A DNA stretch of 64,000 nt from Ferrimonas sp. YFM (GTDB lineage Bacteria > Pseudomonadota > Gammaproteobacteria > Enterobacterales > Shewanellaceae). Under the pieces are notes generated by a model. That model did no database searches. It had not been told where the DNA came from and saw only the letters and a list, made by a program, of their open reading frames with translations. The DNA lies in contig NZ_AP027368.1 in the NCBI RefSeq assembly GCF_030296015.1, positions 1,984,001 to 2,048,000 on the forward strand. The letters run 5' to 3'. Shown here one piece after another: positions 26,222 to 39,300 of the stretch. Each line of letters opens with the position of its first letter. Within the stretch, counting starts at the first letter, position 1. A program made the translations under genes and the position numbers.

Positions 26222-26404
26222 ATGGCGGACTTTGTGGAGTGCATGAGGCTCAGGGCCAAGGCGGCGGAGGACATCTACTTCGCCGAGCAGAATCGAAAGC
26301 TGATTGAAGCCCTGCATGAGAAGTGGGACCGGGAGGCAGGCACAGAGTCTGAACCACACCCGGGCACCCACAGCAACAAAGATATCCTCAAATCTGAGCG
26401 TTGA
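26222..26404 (+). CDS. Small conserved-looking hypothetical protein, 60 residues
   Basis: A hydrophilic 60-residue protein with one amphipathic helix (MRLRAKAAEDIYFAEQNRKLIEALHEK) and a disordered tail. GAGGGG lies seven bases before the ATG, a good ribosome site. The helix pattern recalls small cytosolic proteins of Shewanella relatives, but I cannot name a family. It follows rhlE by 80 bases and may be cotranscribed. Confidence 0.6.
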   Translation: MADFVECMRLRAKAAEDIYFAEQNRKLIEALHEKWDREAGTESEPHPGTHSNKDILKSER

Positions 26405-26610: not shown

Positions 26611-27507
26611 ATGAAGATTGATGATCTCGAGTTATTCAATACGGTCGTAGAGTATGGCAGCCAGAGTGAGGCTGCCCGGGTATTGGGCATTCCTCCCTCC
26701 AAGATCAGCAGGCGCCTTGCCATCATCGAACAGCAGCTCAATACCAAGCTGTTCGAGCGTTCCGCCAAGGGGTTTGAACTGACCGAAGCCGGAGAACAGG
26801 TGTTGCACAGTTGCAAGCGGGTGCTGTCGGAGATGGAGGAGCTCAAGCTCGGAGTGGGCAAATTGCAGGGAAACCCCGAGGGCGCCATCGTGGTGGCTGC
26901 CCCCCTGGATTTCATCAATCGTGTCTGCCGTCCGGCGATGAAGCAGTTCCACGAGCAATTTCCTGGCCTGCAGCTGAAGTTCATCTCCTATCAGAGCCGG
27001 CAGAACCCTATGGAGGTGCAGGCGGATCTGGTGTTCTTTGTTGGTCACCATACACCGCCGGATTGCGCCATGGTCGCTCAGAAGCTGGCGGTGATTCAGC
27101 GAAACTTTGTGGCCAGCCCAGGGTGGATTGCCGAACACCCCGAACTGGTTCACCCAAGACAGCTAGTGCATTATCCTTGCCTGCTCAGTGCCAAAGGGGC
27201 GCAACCCGCAACCCGTTGGCTTTGGAGCGAACAGGGCAGGATACACAGCCTTGATGTCGACGGTCCTCTCGACTCAGAGATCAACGAGTTGTGTATCTCC
27301 GCCGCCGTCGATGGCCTGGGTGTTGCCTGGGTTGCACCCTGTATGTGCCAGGAAGAATTAGAAGCCGGGAAGCTTCAGGTATTATTTGACGGACAATATG
27401 GCACGCCAATCACCACTTGGGGGTTATATTCCAACCGGCACTATATGCCTCAGAGGGTAAGGATTGTCTTGGAGTTTTTTAAAGAGGGTATGAAAGACAT
27501 CGTTTGA
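26611..27507 (+). CDS. LysR-family transcriptional regulator
   Basis: A 298-residue LysR regulator. The N-terminal winged helix (residues 1-60: MKIDDLELFNTVVEYGSQSE then SKISRRLAIIEQQL) is followed by a periplasmic-binding-protein-like effector domain. It converges on the outer membrane channel gene and stands beside the reductive dehalogenase genes, so it may respond to an aromatic or halogenated compound; this is inference from position. GGGGGAAACC lies just before the ATG. Confidence 0.9.
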   Translation: MKIDDLELFNTVVEYGSQSEAARVLGIPPSKISRRLAIIEQQLNTKLFERSAKGFELTEAGEQVLHSCKRVLSEMEELKLGVGKLQGNPEGAIVVAAPLDFINRVCRPAMKQFHEQFPGLQLKFISYQSRQNPMEVQADLVFFVGHHTPPDCAMVAQKLAVIQRNFVASPGWIAEHPELVHPRQLVHYPCLLSAKGAQPATRWLWSEQGRIHSLDVDGPLDSEINELCISAAVDGLGVAWVAPCMCQEELEAGKLQVLFDGQYGTPITTWGLYSNRHYMPQRVRIVLEFFKEGMKDIV

Positions 27508-27556
27508 TATTGAGGCTGACAGTGGCGTCTTGATGACGCCACAGAGATTTAATATT

Positions 27557-28480
27557 TTAGAAGGACTTGGTGAGAGTGAATACCAGGCTTTCGCCTTTTG
27601 GCGTATTTTTGGCTTCAAACTCGTTTACGTACCTTAAGTTGGCCTGAAGCTTCCAAGGCAGATAGAAGACATTCAGTTCGGCCCCCAAGCCCAATGTGCG
27701 TTTTTTATGATTTGCGACGACGCCGGGTCCATCTTTGCTGTCGTCACTCAGTTGCCAATAGGCGCAATAACTAATTCCAGGTTGAACCAGCCAGGTATGA
27801 TTAACGTTGAATTCTTTGCCTATTCCCCCTTCCAGAATAAACTCTTCGCCAGGTTCAATATCGGTTTCATCCTGCTCTGAATTAACTAGGGTGCGGCTCA
27901 ATGCGCTGACAGACCAGGAGCGTTGTTTATCCAGATAATAGGTGCCCCCCAGACTCAGCATGCCTGACCAGTAACCCAGTCCAGGTGAGGCCGCCTTATG
28001 GGCATCGTAGTCTCCGGTAGGGGCAATAACCGCCAAAGCGGCGGCCGCATCATAGCGCTCGCCATGCCAAAACAGGGCAAAGGGCTCCAGCACCACGTCT
28101 CCCAGTGCGAAAGATTGACTGTCTTGGATGCCGGCAGGCTGAATGGAGATGGAGGTGTCTTTCATTGGCACCAGCACATTGAACGCCCAGTCCGCACCGA
28201 GAATCTTGTAATCACTGACATAGATAAAGCGGTGAACCTGGGCGTACACGTCCAGATCGAACTTAGCACCTGAGTCATTGCCTTGATTGTCGTTGAGGGT
28301 ATCGGCCTGATACCAGGTGTTGTATAAGCGGTAGTGAATGCCCGGAGGCGGCGCCGAGGCGGCTTTGACTCCCTCTCCCCCGAGAGGGTAGTGCGAACCT
28401 GAGGTTGCGGCGTATGAGGAGGCAGAAATAACCAACCCGAGTACTAGAGTTGTTGCTTGAATCTGTTTTTGGGTAGTCAT
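27557..28480 (-). CDS. MetA-pathway phenol-degradation/SphA-type outer membrane protein
   Basis: A 307-residue outer membrane beta-barrel. A signal peptide ends near SASSYA; the mature part begins SGSHYPLGGEGVKAASAPPPG, the hallmark of the phenol-degradation 'meta' family (PF13557-type), and continues as alternating amphipathic strands to a terminal Phe. Such channels take up hydrophobic aromatics. Being divergent from the rdh genes, it could admit a halogenated phenol for RdhA. The frame opens at ATG 28492; ATG 28480 has a weak GGA ahead of it and starts MTTQKQ, so the start is uncertain by four codons. Confidence 0.82.
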   Translation of the reverse strand: MTTQKQIQATTLVLGLVISASSYAATSGSHYPLGGEGVKAASAPPPGIHYRLYNTWYQADTLNDNQGNDSGAKFDLDVYAQVHRFIYVSDYKILGADWAFNVLVPMKDTSISIQPAGIQDSQSFALGDVVLEPFALFWHGERYDAAAALAVIAPTGDYDAHKAASPGLGYWSGMLSLGGTYYLDKQRSWSVSALSRTLVNSEQDETDIEPGEEFILEGGIGKEFNVNHTWLVQPGISYCAYWQLSDDSKDGPGVVANHKKRTLGLGAELNVFYLPWKLQANLRYVNEFEAKNTPKGESLVFTLTKSF

Positions 28481-28492
28481 ATTAAGATCCAT

Positions 28493-28970
28493 TATTTATT
28501 AATTCCGGCTGAGGGAATTAATCGGTTTCATCAACGGTCGTTTTCATTGTGGCTAACTGTTTTTTACTAAGGCTTATTTAGGTTAACCATATAATTGGCA
28601 CCACCTTGCCTAATTTGTATCGGCAGATGAGTGGTGAAGACGACTATAAATAACTTTTGGACAGGGTCAATGACGAGTGCTTGTGGCATAAACTTAGTTC
28701 TTAAAAACTAAGGTGATGTCACCATGAATGCGATCAAATTATTTGGGCGCCTTAGGTGAGTGTATTGTTCGAAGCGAGGTCAAAAGTGTGATCTCTGTGG
28801 TCAATTGGCAAAATTTGTGAAGGGGCAAATTGAATTTCATTTCGTGGTTGCGATTTTTGCAAACCCATATTCTATTCGTTGGTATATCTTATTCCGCGGC
28901 TCAAATTTAGAATTTATTTAAATAAGCGGCTTTATCTGCTTCAGGAAACTCTGAGAAAGAAGGTAAAACT
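28493..28970. promoter_or_regulatory. AT-rich divergent promoter region of the rdh genes
   Basis: About 480 AT-rich bases between the outer membrane channel gene and rdhA, clearly lower in GC than the genes. It must hold both promoters. I see scattered TTTGCAAA and AAATTTG repeats (28800-28865) and a TGTGATCT half-site at about 28787, but no complete CRP or FNR box and no convincing gene. Confidence 0.5.
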
Positions 28971-30419
28971 ATGAGTCAGAAAGATAACCAAAGTGTTGAA
29001 CAATCAGATGAGGTTACGCAGGGCGTCGACGCACGTCGCCGCCAACTGCTGAAGCTCAGTGCCGGTACCGTGGCCGGTGTTGGTGTGGTGGCGGGCGCCG
29101 GGGCCTGGGTGAAAAACCGCATGGATGGCATCGTCCATCAGGAGTTCCCCAATGAGATTAGCGCCGATTTTAAACCCATGGACCAGCGTAACGTCAACCA
29201 GACCTATGCACTGAGCAAGAAGTTGCAGGCGGAGCACCCGGAGCGAAACCTCAATTTTGGCATTGAGAGCCTGGGGCCGGTACAACCTGGCGAGAAGCCC
29301 ATGCACATGGGCGAAGCGTTCATGACCTTCCTGCATGGCGCCGAGCGTTATGACAACGACAAGGTGGGTTACACCCAGCTGGACTTCGCCCTGGAGGAAG
29401 CGTGCTGGCATGGCTCCATGTCTCTGGCGCCCCTGGTACAGGCCGGTGTGCCGGGCCAGGGTGTCCTGACCTGGGACCAGTCGGACGTCCATGAGCACCA
29501 GTACCCCTTTAAGGATTCGGTGGAGAAGATCTCCGCCATCAAGACCGCCGCCAGAACCTTTGGTGCCGCTAGGGTGGGGATCTGTCGCCGTGATCGTCGC
29601 TGGGACTACAACCCTCTCTACCACGCCTTGACCGAGAAGACCCTGACCTGGGAGGAGGACTTCCCGTTCGAGCCCAAGAGCGTGATTGTGATGATTGTGC
29701 CCATGGATTACGAAGCGGTGTCCACGGCGCCGGCCATTCCCCAGTCCGCTACCGCTGCGCAGGGGTACAGCAACATCGCCATGCTGGCCGGTCAGATGGC
29801 CAAATTCATTCGTCGTCTGGGCTTTCAGGCGGTCGGCGCCACCAACGATTTGGGCAATTCGGTGGCCTACGGCATCGCCGCCGGTCTGGGGGAGGGCTCT
29901 CGCAATGGCGCCATGGTGGCACCCAACCTGGGGCCGAGAATTCGCATCTGTAAGGTGTACACCGATCTGGAGCTGGATGAGCCGGCCTACGACAAGCCGC
30001 GCACCTACGGCATTCAGGAGTTCTGTGAGAACTGCAAGCGTTGCGGCGAAGCCTGCCCCTCCGGCGCCATCTGCATGGATGATAAACCCTCCATGGCACC
30101 GACCTACCCGGGCAGTGAAGATCCTCTCTACACCTGGGACGTCAATACCGGCGTACGCAAGTTCTACAGCGATCCGAAGAAGTGCCTGAAGTTCTGGGCC
30201 GACAACGGCGGCGACTGTGGTGCCTGCATCGCCGCCTGTCCTTGGAACAAACCCGACTTCTGGCACCACAGGTTGATTGACGCCTCCAACACCTTTACCG
30301 GCGGCACCGTCCATGGACTGATGACCAAGGCGGACATCCTGTTCGGCTACGGCAACGTCAACGACGAAGAGGCGGTGCGTAAGTTCTGGAAGAGTGGTTT
30401 TAGTGGCGATTTTGTTTAA
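28971..30419 (+). CDS. rdhA: Reductive dehalogenase catalytic subunit RdhA
   Basis: A 482-residue Tat-exported enzyme that should use cobamide and two [4Fe-4S] clusters to remove halogen reductively from an organic compound. Visible: twin-arginine leader (R22-R24 in ARRRQLLKLS, hydrophobic run to ~48); the conserved core GYSNIAMLAGQMA with Y266 as a candidate catalytic tyrosine, FIRRLGFQA, GPRIRICKVYTDL; first cluster C352-x2-C355-x2-C358-x3-C362; second C405-x10-C416-x2-C419-x3-C423. RdhB and RdhC genes follow. As in other RdhA proteins, no DxHxxG cobalamin motif is evident. The substrate cannot be told from sequence. Confidence 0.92.
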   Translation: MSQKDNQSVEQSDEVTQGVDARRRQLLKLSAGTVAGVGVVAGAGAWVKNRMDGIVHQEFPNEISADFKPMDQRNVNQTYALSKKLQAEHPERNLNFGIESLGPVQPGEKPMHMGEAFMTFLHGAERYDNDKVGYTQLDFALEEACWHGSMSLAPLVQAGVPGQGVLTWDQSDVHEHQYPFKDSVEKISAIKTAARTFGAARVGICRRDRRWDYNPLYHALTEKTLTWEEDFPFEPKSVIVMIVPMDYEAVSTAPAIPQSATAAQGYSNIAMLAGQMAKFIRRLGFQAVGATNDLGNSVAYGIAAGLGEGSRNGAMVAPNLGPRIRICKVYTDLELDEPAYDKPRTYGIQEFCENCKRCGEACPSGAICMDDKPSMAPTYPGSEDPLYTWDVNTGVRKFYSDPKKCLKFWADNGGDCGACIAACPWNKPDFWHHRLIDASNTFTGGTVHGLMTKADILFGYGNVNDEEAVRKFWKSGFSGDFV

Positions 30420-30431
30420 GGAGACGAACCT

Positions 30432-30710
30432 ATGATGGGATTAATGTGGTACCTGATGGGCATGGCCACCACCGGAGCGATCTGGGGTTACGCAGCCCTG
30501 CGTCGTCGCTACCGTCTGGGCAGCGGTGCCAACCTGGCCCTGTTTTGCACCTTTGTCCTGGCCTGGCTGTGTGTGGGCTGGTCCTGGGGCTCCTTCGCCG
30601 AGGGTGAACCCCAGTCCGGCGCCATGGGACTGATCTGTTTCGGCCTCTCTACTCTGGTGGCTGCCGCCCTGAGCTGGCGCCATCTGATTCAACCCGGCAA
30701 ACGTTCCTGA
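30432..30710 (+). CDS. rdhB: RdhB-like membrane anchor
   Basis: A 92-residue membrane protein with three hydrophobic segments (about 3-20, 36-52, 64-82), the size and topology of RdhB, which anchors the dehalogenase to the outer face of the inner membrane. RdhB proteins are poorly conserved, so assignment rests on position 12 bases after rdhA, a good AAGGAG site, and topology. It has WSWGS between spans two and three; acidic residues in the loop (EGEPQ) face the expected RdhA side. Confidence 0.85.
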   Translation: MMGLMWYLMGMATTGAIWGYAALRRRYRLGSGANLALFCTFVLAWLCVGWSWGSFAEGEPQSGAMGLICFGLSTLVAAALSWRHLIQPGKRS

Positions 30711-30763
30711 GCCGCCTGAGTTTCAGTGTCCCCGCCCGGCGGGGACCTTCTCTGAGGAGTTCC

Positions 30764-32041
30764 ATGTCAAGATCCAAATCCAATCCATCCGCCCGGGGAC
30801 GCACGGGGGCAATGCTCTGGCTGCGCCTTGTCGCCTGGACCTCTCTGGCGGCGGCCTTTGTTGTTGGGCTTATCTGGCAGCAGCCGGATTACACCTCCTT
30901 GCTGCAGGCCGCTTATCCCAAAGGGGTGATTTCCACCCAAGAACAGACGCCAAACCAGTACCAGATGTTGCTCAAAGGTGAGCACTTTCTGGTGAGCATC
31001 AATGAGTCCCAGGGCTATGGTGGTCCTATGCTGGTGGCAAGCCGCATCAATGAACAGGGGCGGGTGGTCGAAGCGAAACTGCTGCAGCATAAAGAGACCC
31101 CGGGTTATGTGGCCCGTTTTGATGAAAGTCAGTACTACCGACAGTTTGCCGGAAAGAGGGTCAATGATGACTTCCTGCTGGGGCAGGACATCGATGCCTT
31201 AAGTGGGGCCACTCTGACCTCCAGAGGGTTGACCACAGCGGTGCGAGACGGCACCCATGGGGCCACCGATCAATTTAATTTGCCTGCCGACTGGCAAGAG
31301 CCACAACTGGTGCTGGGCGTTAAAGAGCTGGCGGCGTTTCTGTTGTTTGCGGCGGCCTTTATGCACAAACGGGTACCAAGGCAGCATCAGGCCAGATTCA
31401 ATCAGGTGCTGGGTGTGGCGTCAGTGGTGCTCATCGGCTACTGGCTCAACTCGGCCCTCTCCATGGCGCTGGTGGGCTCACTGTTGCTCGGTTACATCCC
31501 GTCGCCTCAGCAGCATTTGCTGTGGTACATCATGCTAACCGGTGCCCTGGGGGCGATCCTGTTTATGGGGCGCAACCTCTACTGCAGTCAATTGTGTCCC
31601 TTCCATCAGATACAGCGCTGGCTGCACCGCTTGAGTGGACTCAATCTGCAGCTGCACCCCTGGCTGAAGTCTCGGCTCAAGCAGGTGACCAACACCCTGC
31701 TGTGGGCATCCTTGATGCTGATTTTTCTGTCCAGGACGCCGGCTATTGGCTCTTACGAACCCTTCTCCATGCTGTTCTCCTTAGATGGCCTTGGGGTGCA
31801 GTGGTACATACTGCCGCTGAGTTTGTTCGGCGCCTTTCTGGTCAGCGACTTCTGGTGCCGGCTGCTGTGTCCCCTGGGACGTTTTCTCAACTACAGCCTG
31901 GAAGCCCGCGCCAGAGCACTGGCCCGATTCAAAAAGGGCGGTCGTATCCCGGCAACCGATCTGTCTCAACCTCGACCCATTCACAGGAGGCCCGGCCATG
32001 GCAACCCCATCACCGCGGAAAAACGCCACCCCAAGGCGTGA
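30764..32041 (+). CDS. rdhC: RdhC/NosR-like FMN-binding and Fe-S membrane protein
   Basis: A 425-residue membrane protein. One N-terminal span precedes a periplasmic FMN-binding domain whose flavinylation motif is SGATLTS (147-153, covalent FMN expected on T152). About five further spans follow, with two CxxxCP motifs, C273-C277 and C364-C368, on the cytoplasmic side. This layout is that of RdhC and NosR, thought to pass electrons from the quinone pool or act in maturation. A charged C-terminal tail extends past the last span. The end overlaps the start of a small membrane-protein gene by 44 bases. Confidence 0.9.
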   Translation: MSRSKSNPSARGRTGAMLWLRLVAWTSLAAAFVVGLIWQQPDYTSLLQAAYPKGVISTQEQTPNQYQMLLKGEHFLVSINESQGYGGPMLVASRINEQGRVVEAKLLQHKETPGYVARFDESQYYRQFAGKRVNDDFLLGQDIDALSGATLTSRGLTTAVRDGTHGATDQFNLPADWQEPQLVLGVKELAAFLLFAAAFMHKRVPRQHQARFNQVLGVASVVLIGYWLNSALSMALVGSLLLGYIPSPQQHLLWYIMLTGALGAILFMGRNLYCSQLCPFHQIQRWLHRLSGLNLQLHPWLKSRLKQVTNTLLWASLMLIFLSRTPAIGSYEPFSMLFSLDGLGVQWYILPLSLFGAFLVSDFWCRLLCPLGRFLNYSLEARARALARFKKGGRIPATDLSQPRPIHRRPGHGNPITAEKRHPKA

Positions 32042-32144
32042 GCAACCGGCCCGTCCGGCGGAGCAGTGGGGCACCACCGCGATGTTTGTACTGACCCTGG
32101 TGGTGATCCTGCTGTCATTCTGGCAGCAAGCGTCACGCCTCTGA
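31998..32144 (+). CDS. 48-residue single-span membrane protein in the rdh operon
   Basis: A small ORF with AGGAGG exactly seven bases before its ATG, the best ribosome site of the cluster. The product has a basic, Pro-rich N-terminus (MATPSPRKNATPRR, REQPARPAEQWGT) and one membrane span (about 28-42, AMFVLTLVVILLSFW), predicted inside-to-outside. It overlaps the rdhC 3' end in another frame. It could stabilise the RdhABC complex, as small subunits do in respiratory oxidases. That is inference; I recognise no family. Confidence 0.7.
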   Translation: MATPSPRKNATPRREQPARPAEQWGTTAMFVLTLVVILLSFWQQASRL

Positions 32145-32218
32145 TTTGCTGTTTCATCCAGCCCGGTAGATTGGCCGGCGGCTCCAGGGAGGGAGCCTAA
32201 CTGTAGGAAGATAAATCC

Positions 32219-32941
32219 ATGCCTCGAAATGATCTTGCGTTGGAGCTGCGCGCCCTGCTGAAACGAGCCTGTACGGACCTGGGCGTGGCCGAACTCTGCT
32301 TCTGCTACGACATCTGCTCCCCTGAGCAGTGGCGCGCCCGGTTGAAAGGGCGGCAGGCGCATCTGAAGAGTTTCGCCAAGCGCCGGCAGCTCTATGCATC
32401 CAGCGATCAGGCCATGTCGTTGTGGCTCAGAAAGTCCAACTGCCTGGCCGCCGACGGTCAGGGCTTGTTTGGTCTGTTTCAGCAGAGGGTCTATGTATGG
32501 CCGGAGAGTCTGTTACCGGCCGCGGTTCAGCGGCAGATGAAGAAAAACGGGCTGGCTGCACTGGTGACGCTCTCTTTTCCTTGTCGCGATGCGGAGCAGT
32601 TGTGTGGCCGCTTCACCCTGATGGTCGAGCAGCAGGCACAGGTGGAGATGCTGCAATCGCGCCAGGCGTGGATCGAAGCCAGGCTGGAGCAGGTATTTGA
32701 AGATATTGAGGATGCCTACGCCAGCAGGCTCAACCCTCTGGTCGATTACAACATCGTCAACCCGGTTTCTGCGCTGATCCTCAAGGGGCTCGCCCTGGGG
32801 TAGGGGCGGGCCCAGCTGTCTGATCAGCTGAACCTGACGCCCAGAGGCATCGATTACCACGTCGGGCAACTCAAGCTGGTGCTCAATGCCACCACCATTG
32901 CCCAGATGATGGTCCATGCATCCCGGTGTCGACTGGTTTAG
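32219..32941 (+). pseudogene. LuxR-type regulator interrupted by an in-frame amber codon
   Basis: Residues 1-194 form an N-terminal sensor-like domain similar in layout to autoinducer-binding LuxR proteins. At 32801-32803 a TAG interrupts the frame, yet the same frame continues for 45 codons to a second TAG at 32941. It completes a LuxR helix-turn-helix: NPVSALILKGLALG before the stop, then GRAQLSDQLNLTPRGIDYHV and QLKLVLNATTIAQMMV after it. Without readthrough the product lacks its DNA-recognition helix. This looks like a recent nonsense mutation, a sequencing error or suppression. AGGAAG precedes the ATG. Position suggests it once controlled the rdh genes. Confidence 0.8.
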
Positions 32942-37979: not shown

Positions 37980-38748
37980 GAGACCTCCTGGGATGAGGGC
38001 AGTGGGATCTGCTCCTGTCTGCCGTCGAGGGGGACGGTCGAGTCCACACCTGGGCGGGCAAAGATTCACCAGTCTGTTAGGACCAATATACTGATATACA
38101 GTCACTTTGGTCCATAAGCTCAGTGTGAAAAAGCACCAAGTTAAGAGTGGCTGAAAACGCACTTAATCACATTGTCTTTGTCAGTTACTGTGGTTACACT
38201 GAAAAGCTTCGGTCAATTCGATCATATAATTCAAGCGTAAGTGAATGGGGAAGCTGTGTTTAGCTTCACCAGAGTGAGAGTGCTCAGCTGATATTTTTTG
38301 CAGCAATCTGTATTGTTGCGACAAAGTCGGGTCGCCGACAGCCAGTTTTGGTTTGATGCTGTAATTATTTGCTCGTCCTAAATTAGCTGATTTTAATTTA
38401 GGCTTAATGCCAATAATCTTATGCTGGTTGTTATTTTATGAGTTCCTAATGCAAGTTTAATGCATTATCACTGGTGGTATTTTTCCGCCAATAAGGTGGT
38501 TTTTGCATGAACTGCATAGGAAACATGCAATTGATAAATGCCTAACATACTGTTTAAGCAGATTATTATCTGTTTTCTCAGCCTTTTGGCATGGTTAGCC
38601 GATCAAAAAGAATAAATATTCTTTATGTCAGCTGCTAATTTAATTGATGAGCAGGGGTCAGACATTAAGGAATAAGAGCACCAGCTCAATATAAAATGAC
38701 GAGTGGATATTTCTGCCGGTCAACCTGACGTTTCCAGATATAAGGACT
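37980..38748. other. Long AT-rich intergenic region
   Basis: About 770 bases, with the part from 38150 on markedly AT-rich. It separates the leftward Lol-like operon from the rightward hypothetical gene and must carry both promoters. It contains the palindrome at 38080-38113. I see no gene, RNA family or repeat array. The low GC suggests either horizontally acquired DNA or a curved regulatory region. Confidence 0.5.
38080..38113. promoter_or_regulatory. Palindromic operator candidate before the Lol-like operon
   Basis: GGACCAA at 38080-38086 and TTGGTCC at 38107-38113 form a 7-bp outer inverted repeat around an inner ACTG/CAGT pair spaced by ATATA. It lies about 100 bases upstream of the LolA-like start in an AT-rich promoter-like stretch. 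A repressor of the operon could bind here; none is encoded next to it. Confidence 0.5.
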
Positions 38749-39300
38749 ATGAAAATGGTACCTATGGGTTATATGGCCAAGCGTATAATCGCTAAGCCAG
38801 ATTGGTTAAAGAATGCGAATGTAAAAAGACTTTTCTCGGTCAGTGGTTGTAACTCCCATAACCTTATCTGTGCCGAGCAAGATGAGTCTCTGCTTAACGG
38901 ACACTGGATGCTTAACCGCCGCGCCGAAGCGGACCGGGCCCTTGTGGTCGAGGCAGACGATGATGCGCAGCCTCAGACCTTCTATTACGAGCTCTACCCC
39001 GAGCAGTGGAATGACTGCCTTGGTGAGTGGGAGGCTTTCTCCGTGGACAGCAAGCGCGCGGTGACCATTGAGGTGCCTCAGTCCCCAACCCTCGAGGGCT
39101 TCGACATCGTCAGCTTTGCTTTCGGCAGTCAGCCCGAGTGCTCTCTGCTCTCCTGCAGCCATCTGGCGGAAAGGGTATGCGTCAATGAGCAGTGTCTGCT
39201 GCCTACGCTGGAGGAGGCCAAGACTCTGTTGGCGTCCGGTGAGTTTCACGGCTGCGAACCTGGCCCCTACCGTATCCTGGCTGTCTACTCTCTCAACTGA
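38749..39300 (+). CDS. Hypothetical protein of a marine-gammaproteobacterial family
   Basis: A 183-residue soluble protein without a signal peptide. The start MGYMAKRIIAKPDWL and NVKRLFSVSGCNSHNL resembles a family of unknown function I associate with Vibrio and Shewanella. The remainder is acidic with seven cysteines (SLLSCSHLAERVCVNEQCL, HGCEPG). AAGGA lies upstream; either ATG 38749 or ATG 38755 could be used, the second having the better spacing. Preceded by AT-rich DNA. Function unknown. Confidence 0.7.
   Translation: MKMVPMGYMAKRIIAKPDWLKNANVKRLFSVSGCNSHNLICAEQDESLLNGHWMLNRRAEADRALVVEADDDAQPQTFYYELYPEQWNDCLGEWEAFSVDSKRAVTIEVPQSPTLEGFDIVSFAFGSQPECSLLSCSHLAERVCVNEQCLLPTLEEAKTLLASGEFHGCEPGPYRILAVYSLN

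Follow-up and report, generated by a model that had tools for sequence, protein, structure and literature searches.

The closest described counterparts of the genes treated here are the PceABC(T) systems of Desulfitobacterium and Dehalobacter (8q4h; PMC10624902, PMC5928378), the rdhABC genes of the marine Desulfoluna spongiiphila (PMC7031245) and the PceA of Shewanella sediminis, Ssed_3769, which has been listed as experimentally supported (PMC3939436). Menaquinone is bound between PceA and PceB, in a pocket for which nine residues have been named (PMC10624902), and RdhC has been defined by the flavin mononucleotide (FMN) motif [S/T]G[A/S]TX[S/T] together with two CX3CP motifs (PMC5928378). 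Here we describe a reductive dehalogenase (rdh) cluster at positions 26611-32941 of a 64,000-nucleotide stretch of the Ferrimonas sp. YFM genome (the window, G000:C1:1984001-2048000; the genome is one contig of 4.66 Mb). The cluster is a genuine rdhABC operon of known kind with intact core genes, and from sequence comparisons we consider it probable that it represents a conserved organohalide-respiration operon of Ferrimonas and Shewanella with its own outer-membrane port. Ten RdhC sequences from Ferrimonas have been reported, and the genus was named among the interesting candidates for organohalide respiration (PMC5928378); the core finding is therefore not new. A conserved channel partner of rdhA was not found described previously.

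An original prediction made from the DNA alone had listed, in this order, a LysR gene, a channel gene, rdhA, rdhB, rdhC, a tiny membrane protein and a LuxR-type gene. All of them are present where they had been placed, but the LuxR-type gene is interrupted and the channel gene lies on the opposite strand to rdhA, from which it diverges.

The rdhABC genes and their predicted function

The rdhA gene (28971-30419, + strand) encodes the catalytic subunit, a protein of 482 residues that scores 200 bits against the NCBIfam model TIGR02486, above the cut-off of 160.35. Among PDB sequences it matches the PceA complex 8q4h (E 2.1e-59) and S. multivorans PceA 4uqu (E 1.2e-42), and its AlphaFold (AF2) model, with a predicted local distance difference test score (pLDDT) of 84.8, has 8q4h as first match in Foldseek (E 1.5e-33), QueG structures appearing from rank 37 onward only. 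The twin-arginine translocation (Tat) motif RRQLLK occupies residues 23-28 (29037-29054), with R23, R24 and K28 almost invariant in 12 aligned RdhA. Tyr, Asn and Arg residues have catalytic roles in RdhA, and the predicted active site comprises Tyr266 (29766-29768), which aligns with Tyr246 of S. multivorans PceA, Asn292 (29844-29846) and Arg325 (29943-29945). These three are invariant across 38 aligned RdhA, and so are the two 4Fe-4S motifs, C352xxC355xxC358xxxC362P (30024-30059) and C405x10C416xxC419xxxC423 (30183-30239), all on the + strand; L056 was omitted from alignment A4 on account of a stop codon. The family model, both 4Fe-4S motifs, the Tat signal, the catalytic residues, the modelled corrinoid-enzyme fold and the adjacent rdhB support a respiratory-type RdhA, for which corrinoid binding is predicted.

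The presence of a respiratory-type rdhABC set, as originally predicted, is thus borne out by TIGR02486, by the tree and by the fold match to PceA. Two other identities were tried and rejected. Grouping with the queuosine-type QueG proteins, the outcome that the original prediction had set against itself, was not found: TIGR00276 gives 34 bits against a cut-off of 200, the closest structures in sequence and fold are PceA, the tree places the protein accordingly, and the true QueG is a separate gene (C1:846328-847335, 471 bits). Catabolic RdhA of the BhbA/NpRdhA type is a long form that lacks a Tat signal and carries a fused reductase domain; the window protein has 482 residues and a Tat motif, and lies in the tree apart from the 4ras/L141/L142 clade.

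The small membrane anchor is encoded by rdhB (30432-30710, + strand). It has no Pfam or NCBIfam match and belongs to a set of small RdhB-like proteins adjoining rdhA, of which 13 were aligned with G10, W50, S54, E57, G66 and L67 invariant. The FMN-binding membrane protein RdhC (30764-32041, + strand) scores above cut-off with PF04205 (FMN_bind, 53 bits) and PF12801 (33 bits) and matches RnfG-type chains in the PDB (E 1.8e-7). In agreement with the published definition it contains the FMN-binding motif SGATLT (31202-31219) and two CX3CP motifs, CSQLCP (31583-31600) and CRLLCP (31856-31873), and no C-terminal Fe-S motifs.

The menaquinone pocket was mapped through an alignment with the PceA sequence, using a numbering offset of 48 (own count), and the window residues were checked. 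Five of the nine PceA residues are kept (W487, K489, H495, D515 and Y520, corresponding to W425, K427, H433, D455 and Y460), H433 being invariant and Y460 almost so in 38 RdhA; this is compatible with direct feeding by menaquinol without proving it. From PceA2B2 we infer the following electron path. RdhA would be exported by the Tat route to the periplasm, where RdhB would anchor it to the inner membrane; electrons from menaquinol would enter at the RdhA-RdhB interface and pass through the two 4Fe-4S clusters to the corrinoid, which would remove the halogen, and RdhC would serve as an accessory flavoprotein.

Compared with PceABC(T), the locus has the same rdhA-rdhB-rdhC order, the Tat signal, both 4Fe-4S motifs, the five pocket residues and the RdhC motifs (8q4h; PMC10624902, PMC5928378). 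It differs in that the window RdhA is 28% identical over the modelled fold, in its Gram-negative host with an outer-membrane channel and LysR and LuxR regulators, and in that no pceT-like gene occurs among the window open reading frames (ORFs) named, such a gene not having been searched for elsewhere. The nearest functionally linked RdhA copies are 44-46% identical, too distant for phylogeny to indicate a substrate. One of them, at 44%, belongs to the marine rdhABC genes of D. spongiiphila and appears to be RdhA1 (tag AA1_07176, contig 07); in strain DBB, 1,4-dibromobenzene induces rdhA1 and 2,6-dibromophenol induces both rdhA1 and rdhA3, and the regulators, unlike those of the window, are of the sigma-54 or LuxR/MarR types (PMC7031245). 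No COG4313 or FadL homologue was found near the three RdhA of that organism, two of whose loci fall short of 6 kb on one side. In S. sediminis, which we take to be genome G132, two of the five RdhA matches (65-66%) fall in the window clade and both have a COG4313 channel, whereas Ssed_3769, judging by map position, would correspond to the copy with 46% identity, which belongs to a neighbouring clade and has no such channel within 6 kb.

A detoxification or redox-balancing role has reportedly been argued for Shewanella PceA. A genuine RdhA with such a role here, dehalogenating fortuitously and not for energy-conserving growth, would agree with the interrupted LuxR regulator and with the absence of the cluster from the same site in two close relatives; we regard it as unlikely, though it is the most serious of the alternatives, as rdhB, rdhC, the Tat signal and the five pocket residues have been retained, together with a second RdhA locus.

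The outer-membrane channel and its linkage to rdhA

The channel gene (27557-28492, - strand) encodes a COG4313/PF13557 protein predicted to form a 12-stranded barrel. Membership of this family is indicated by the PF13557 score of 158.5 bits (cut-off 22), by the twelve long strands of the AF2 model (11 sequences; pLDDT 60.5, predicted template modelling score 0.62) and by the Foldseek match to the COG4313 channel 4rl8 (E 3.3e-7), which together with FapF (5o68) heads the list. COG4313 channels have been implicated in the uptake of hydrophobic molecules, and TcpY, a member encoded in a trichlorophenol operon, raised the susceptibility of E. coli when expressed (PMC4493636). The window protein resembles Pput2725, TcpY and SphA in family, size and barrel fold; those channels are linked to degradation or to a sphingosine response (PMC4493636), whereas that of the window is linked to a periplasmic respiratory reductase.

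This linkage is conserved among relatives. The RdhA tree has 88 rows and uses 56 of 79 loci (L149, a second copy of L077, was omitted); long branches meet at L096/L139, L032/L140 and L089/L142, where the joins may be false. Channels were searched for in 60 relatives and in 129 genomes of one genus. The window RdhA falls in a clade of 14 rows (support 100/100), all of which have a COG4313/PF13557 gene within 3.3 kb of rdhA, and 13 within 1.2 kb, the fourteenth being the second copy of a tandem pair. A separate clade of seven rows includes the second rdhABC locus of the same genome (L021, G000:C1:2683000-2698000) and has a Toluene_X/FadL (FadL/TodX) gene within 0.7 kb in 7/7, that of L021 matching PF03349 with 211 bits; this pairing parallels that of the window with a channel of the monoaromatic FadL/TodX type, a different barrel family encoded outside the window. 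The distant RdhA of L032 is likewise accompanied by a COG4313 channel, and six further rows have one solely by sharing a locus with a clade member. In the 129 genomes, whose assignment to Shewanella is assumed, RdhA (E up to 1e-20) occurs in 7 and the channel (E up to 1e-15) in 14, and each full-length RdhA of at least 65% identity has a channel within 1.2 kb (8/8). A 116-residue RdhA fragment (G142:C193, 75%) with no channel listed on its contig was left out of this count, and a channel fragment of 37 residues (G000:C1:60622) was also omitted. The channel gene lies downstream of rdhB, not upstream, in L042, L043 and L063; since these are close kin, a single rearrangement that kept the linkage is probably responsible.

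The channel also has a second kind of partner. Related COG4313 genes away from rdhA were found in 24 places, 22 of them in the genus taken to be Shewanella and two in F. futtsuensis. A fumarate-reductase-like flavoprotein related to FAD_binding_2 lies within 2 kb in 18 of the 24, and in 17 of those 18 a small four-haem protein is found within 5 kb too. Pfam confirmed all eight flavoproteins scanned; the flavoproteins of L155 and L162, which are fragmented (154 and 454 bits), are included in the count. The remaining six places, with the most divergent channels (26-29%), show neither protein, matches of 22 bits to the flavin adenine dinucleotide (FAD) family 2.9-3.7 kb away in three of them not being counted, and the candidate rule that every COG4313 gene stands beside a reductase was therefore rejected. 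A module of FAD_binding_2-type flavoprotein and COG4313 channel, usually with a tetrahaem cytochrome, recurs in L152-L164, L170-L172, L118 and L119. At L032:3132-9691 (G001) a composite locus contains a Tat-dependent FAD reductase, a tetrahaem cytochrome and a COG4313 channel, followed by the rdhABC genes of the distant RdhA type.

This linkage suggests to us that the COG4313 channel serves periplasmic reductases as a module that takes up their organic acceptors. COG4313 barrels and, in parallel, FadL/TodX barrels may be exchangeable, dedicated outer-membrane ports for organic electron acceptors, inherited together with terminal reductases of the periplasm that are themselves unrelated (corrinoid RdhA and tetrahaem-cytochrome-linked FAD reductases), a generalisation that we put forward tentatively and that falls a little short of being probable; if it is true, the subtype of the channel would predict the kind of acceptor. 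In the window, a hydrophobic organohalide would cross the outer membrane through the COG4313 channel. A halogenated aromatic is the better bet because the channel families are associated with aromatics; bromophenol, which had been suggested specifically, is a guess. That the COG4313 gene is functionally unconnected with its neighbours, or that its channel exports the dehalogenated product, seems improbable to us: the function of the family is poorly defined (PMC4493636), and a barrel, with a secretion barrel equally similar, leaves the direction of transport open, but the linkage survives rearrangement and recurs with the distant RdhA of L032, the same channel adjoins another class of periplasmic reductase, and TcpY offers a precedent for trichlorophenol (PMC4493636).

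Several observations weigh against a respiratory operon with a port of its own. The Pfam model PF13486 (Dehalogenase) does not match RdhA, nor does it match anything in a screen of the genome that is made uninformative by a control that fired in 0/14 genomes, and four of the nine pocket residues are changed (S486, A498, R499 and A511 to P424, I436, D437 and M451). Confidence in the channel model is modest, and its match to 4rl8 is equalled by that to FapF, a barrel for protein secretion. The 14-row clade is one descent group and does not amount to 14 independent events. Neither channel family lies within 6 kb in 56 of 84 RdhA rows (18 of these with less than 6 kb on one side), among them the presumed S. 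sediminis PceA; such a channel is therefore not generally needed, and the idea of a channel beside every rdhA was rejected.

The original prediction of a self-contained uptake-and-respire unit holds as far as respiratory rdhABC genes are joined, across relatives, to a channel of a family implicated in the uptake of hydrophobic molecules and of trichlorophenol (PMC4493636). The term self-contained is an overstatement, as corrinoid synthesis and flavin transferases are encoded elsewhere and the LuxR regulator looks broken. No paper in which a reductive dehalogenase is paired with a channel of the COG4313 or FadL family was found in a literature search; among the matches listed, only PMC6208644 and PMC3975901 contained the term reductive dehalogenase together with FadL or TcpY. 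The crossing of the outer membrane by hydrophobic organohalides in Gram-negative respirers has seemingly been little studied, and the pairing of channel and rdhA offers a testable uptake gene and a genomic cue for substrate class in culturable marine bacteria.

Descent of the cluster

RdhA matches occur in 5/14 genomes of Ferrimonas, the present one counted. The closest flanking genes are those of F. futtsuensis (RhlE identity 94.6%). In this species and in G012 the site is empty, no gene separating the small ORF downstream of rhlE (window 26222-26404) from the barrel gene found at window 32947, while in F. kyonanensis the cluster stands at the same site and in the same order. In F. sediminum, too, rdh genes lie next to rhlE and, on a different contig, next to the ABC genes.

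AT-rich flanks had been taken as a hint of transfer, which the analysis does not uphold. The AT-rich part consists of the divergent intergenic region (GC 0.379) and the channel gene. The GC content at third codon positions, relative to the other window ORFs (mechanically picked), is host-like for rdhA (+0.4 standard deviations) and rdhC (-0.6) and lower for LysR (-1.3) and the channel (-2.9); the composition of rdhB is host-like as well. Identity to F. kyonanensis at fourfold sites is 55.6% for rdhA, 53.7% for rdhB, 44.1% for rdhC, 36.7% for LysR and 34.4% for the channel, as against 48.8% for rhlE and 49.7-55.5% for the genes on the ABC side, the copies being as old as their flanks or older. 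No insertion element or target duplication was seen in the junction sequences, by eye and with blastn, and a plasmid collection gave 10 records, all below 60% identity and none covering 80%.

On the simplest reading the cluster is ancient and was lost from two lineages, although it may have arrived at this site a second time. A recently transferred island is the least probable of the alternatives, for its clean empty site, the AT-rich stretch with its aberrant channel gene and the homologues in Shewanella are outweighed by the shared site and order in F. kyonanensis, by host-like composition and flank-like divergence of the rdh genes, and by junctions in which no mobility genes were seen. Two further observations concern the surroundings. 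At the rhlE/ABC site of F. sediminum several rdhA copies are found (L022, L023 and L121) and the contigs break off within rdhC, which points to a tandem rdh array at which assembly failed. An AT dip deeper than that beside rdhA lies outside the cluster at 38.1-38.5 kb, in an AT-rich stretch beyond the ABC operon (window 38100-38900, GC down to 0.35).

Regulators, cofactor supply and accessory genes

The LysR-type regulator (26611-27507, + strand; PF03466 88 bits, PF00126 67 bits, both above cut-off) is probably the sensor of the substrate. Its homologues, at 366-463 bits, adjoin rdhA in L035-L043 and L063. Between the channel gene and rdhA lies the AT-rich divergent region that presumably holds the promoters (28493-28970). 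It is weakly conserved (mean column identity 42%) save for a short TTTTTGCAAA-like block; a search for a conserved operator there met a poor alignment, and no binding site is claimed.

The LuxR-type gene (32219-32941, + strand) is open from 32219 up to an in-frame TAG (32801-32803) that lies close upstream of the helix-turn-helix (HTH) part; beyond this stop the frame runs on through the HTH as far as 32941. All 18 aligned homologues from rdh loci read through this position. The window copy has no Pfam match; two of four relatives scanned match the Pfam model GerE, barely above cut-off, and the two non-matching entries represent a single F. kyonanensis gene. The protein is probably non-functional in this strain, though the TAG may be a sequencing error; if the HTH is lost, the only local regulator seen is LysR.

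With respect to cofactors, the genome encodes CobS, cobM/cbiF (above cut-off), CbiK, CbiC, CbiG, CbiB, a CobB/CobQ-type amidotransferase and four TP-methylase proteins, which indicate de novo corrinoid synthesis as judged by gene content. Five ApbE-type genes can provide the flavin transferase.

The tiny membrane protein of the cluster has 48 residues and a single hydrophobic stretch (31998-32144, + strand), overlaps the end of rdhC and is weakly matched by proteins at a similar position in L035, L036 and L040 (E 1e-4 to 7e-3). A second, distant type of RdhA is encoded next to the channel-paired rdhA in several Ferrimonas and Shewanella (L040:3805-5610, L042:4938-6479, L144:11092-12615), and in L040 and L042 it has an rdhC-like gene as a neighbour. 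The second locus of the present genome, L021, has its FadL/TodX-type channel in divergent orientation, a LysR gene and an uninterrupted LuxR gene, with an AidB-like acyl-CoA dehydrogenase and a nitroreductase nearby, and its RdhA carries an insertion of ~36 residues near position 220. Between rdhC and luxR of that locus are encoded a 207-residue protein with no Pfam match (L021:4447-5067) and a small membrane protein (L021:5067-5306), the latter with counterparts in L049, L052 and L054.

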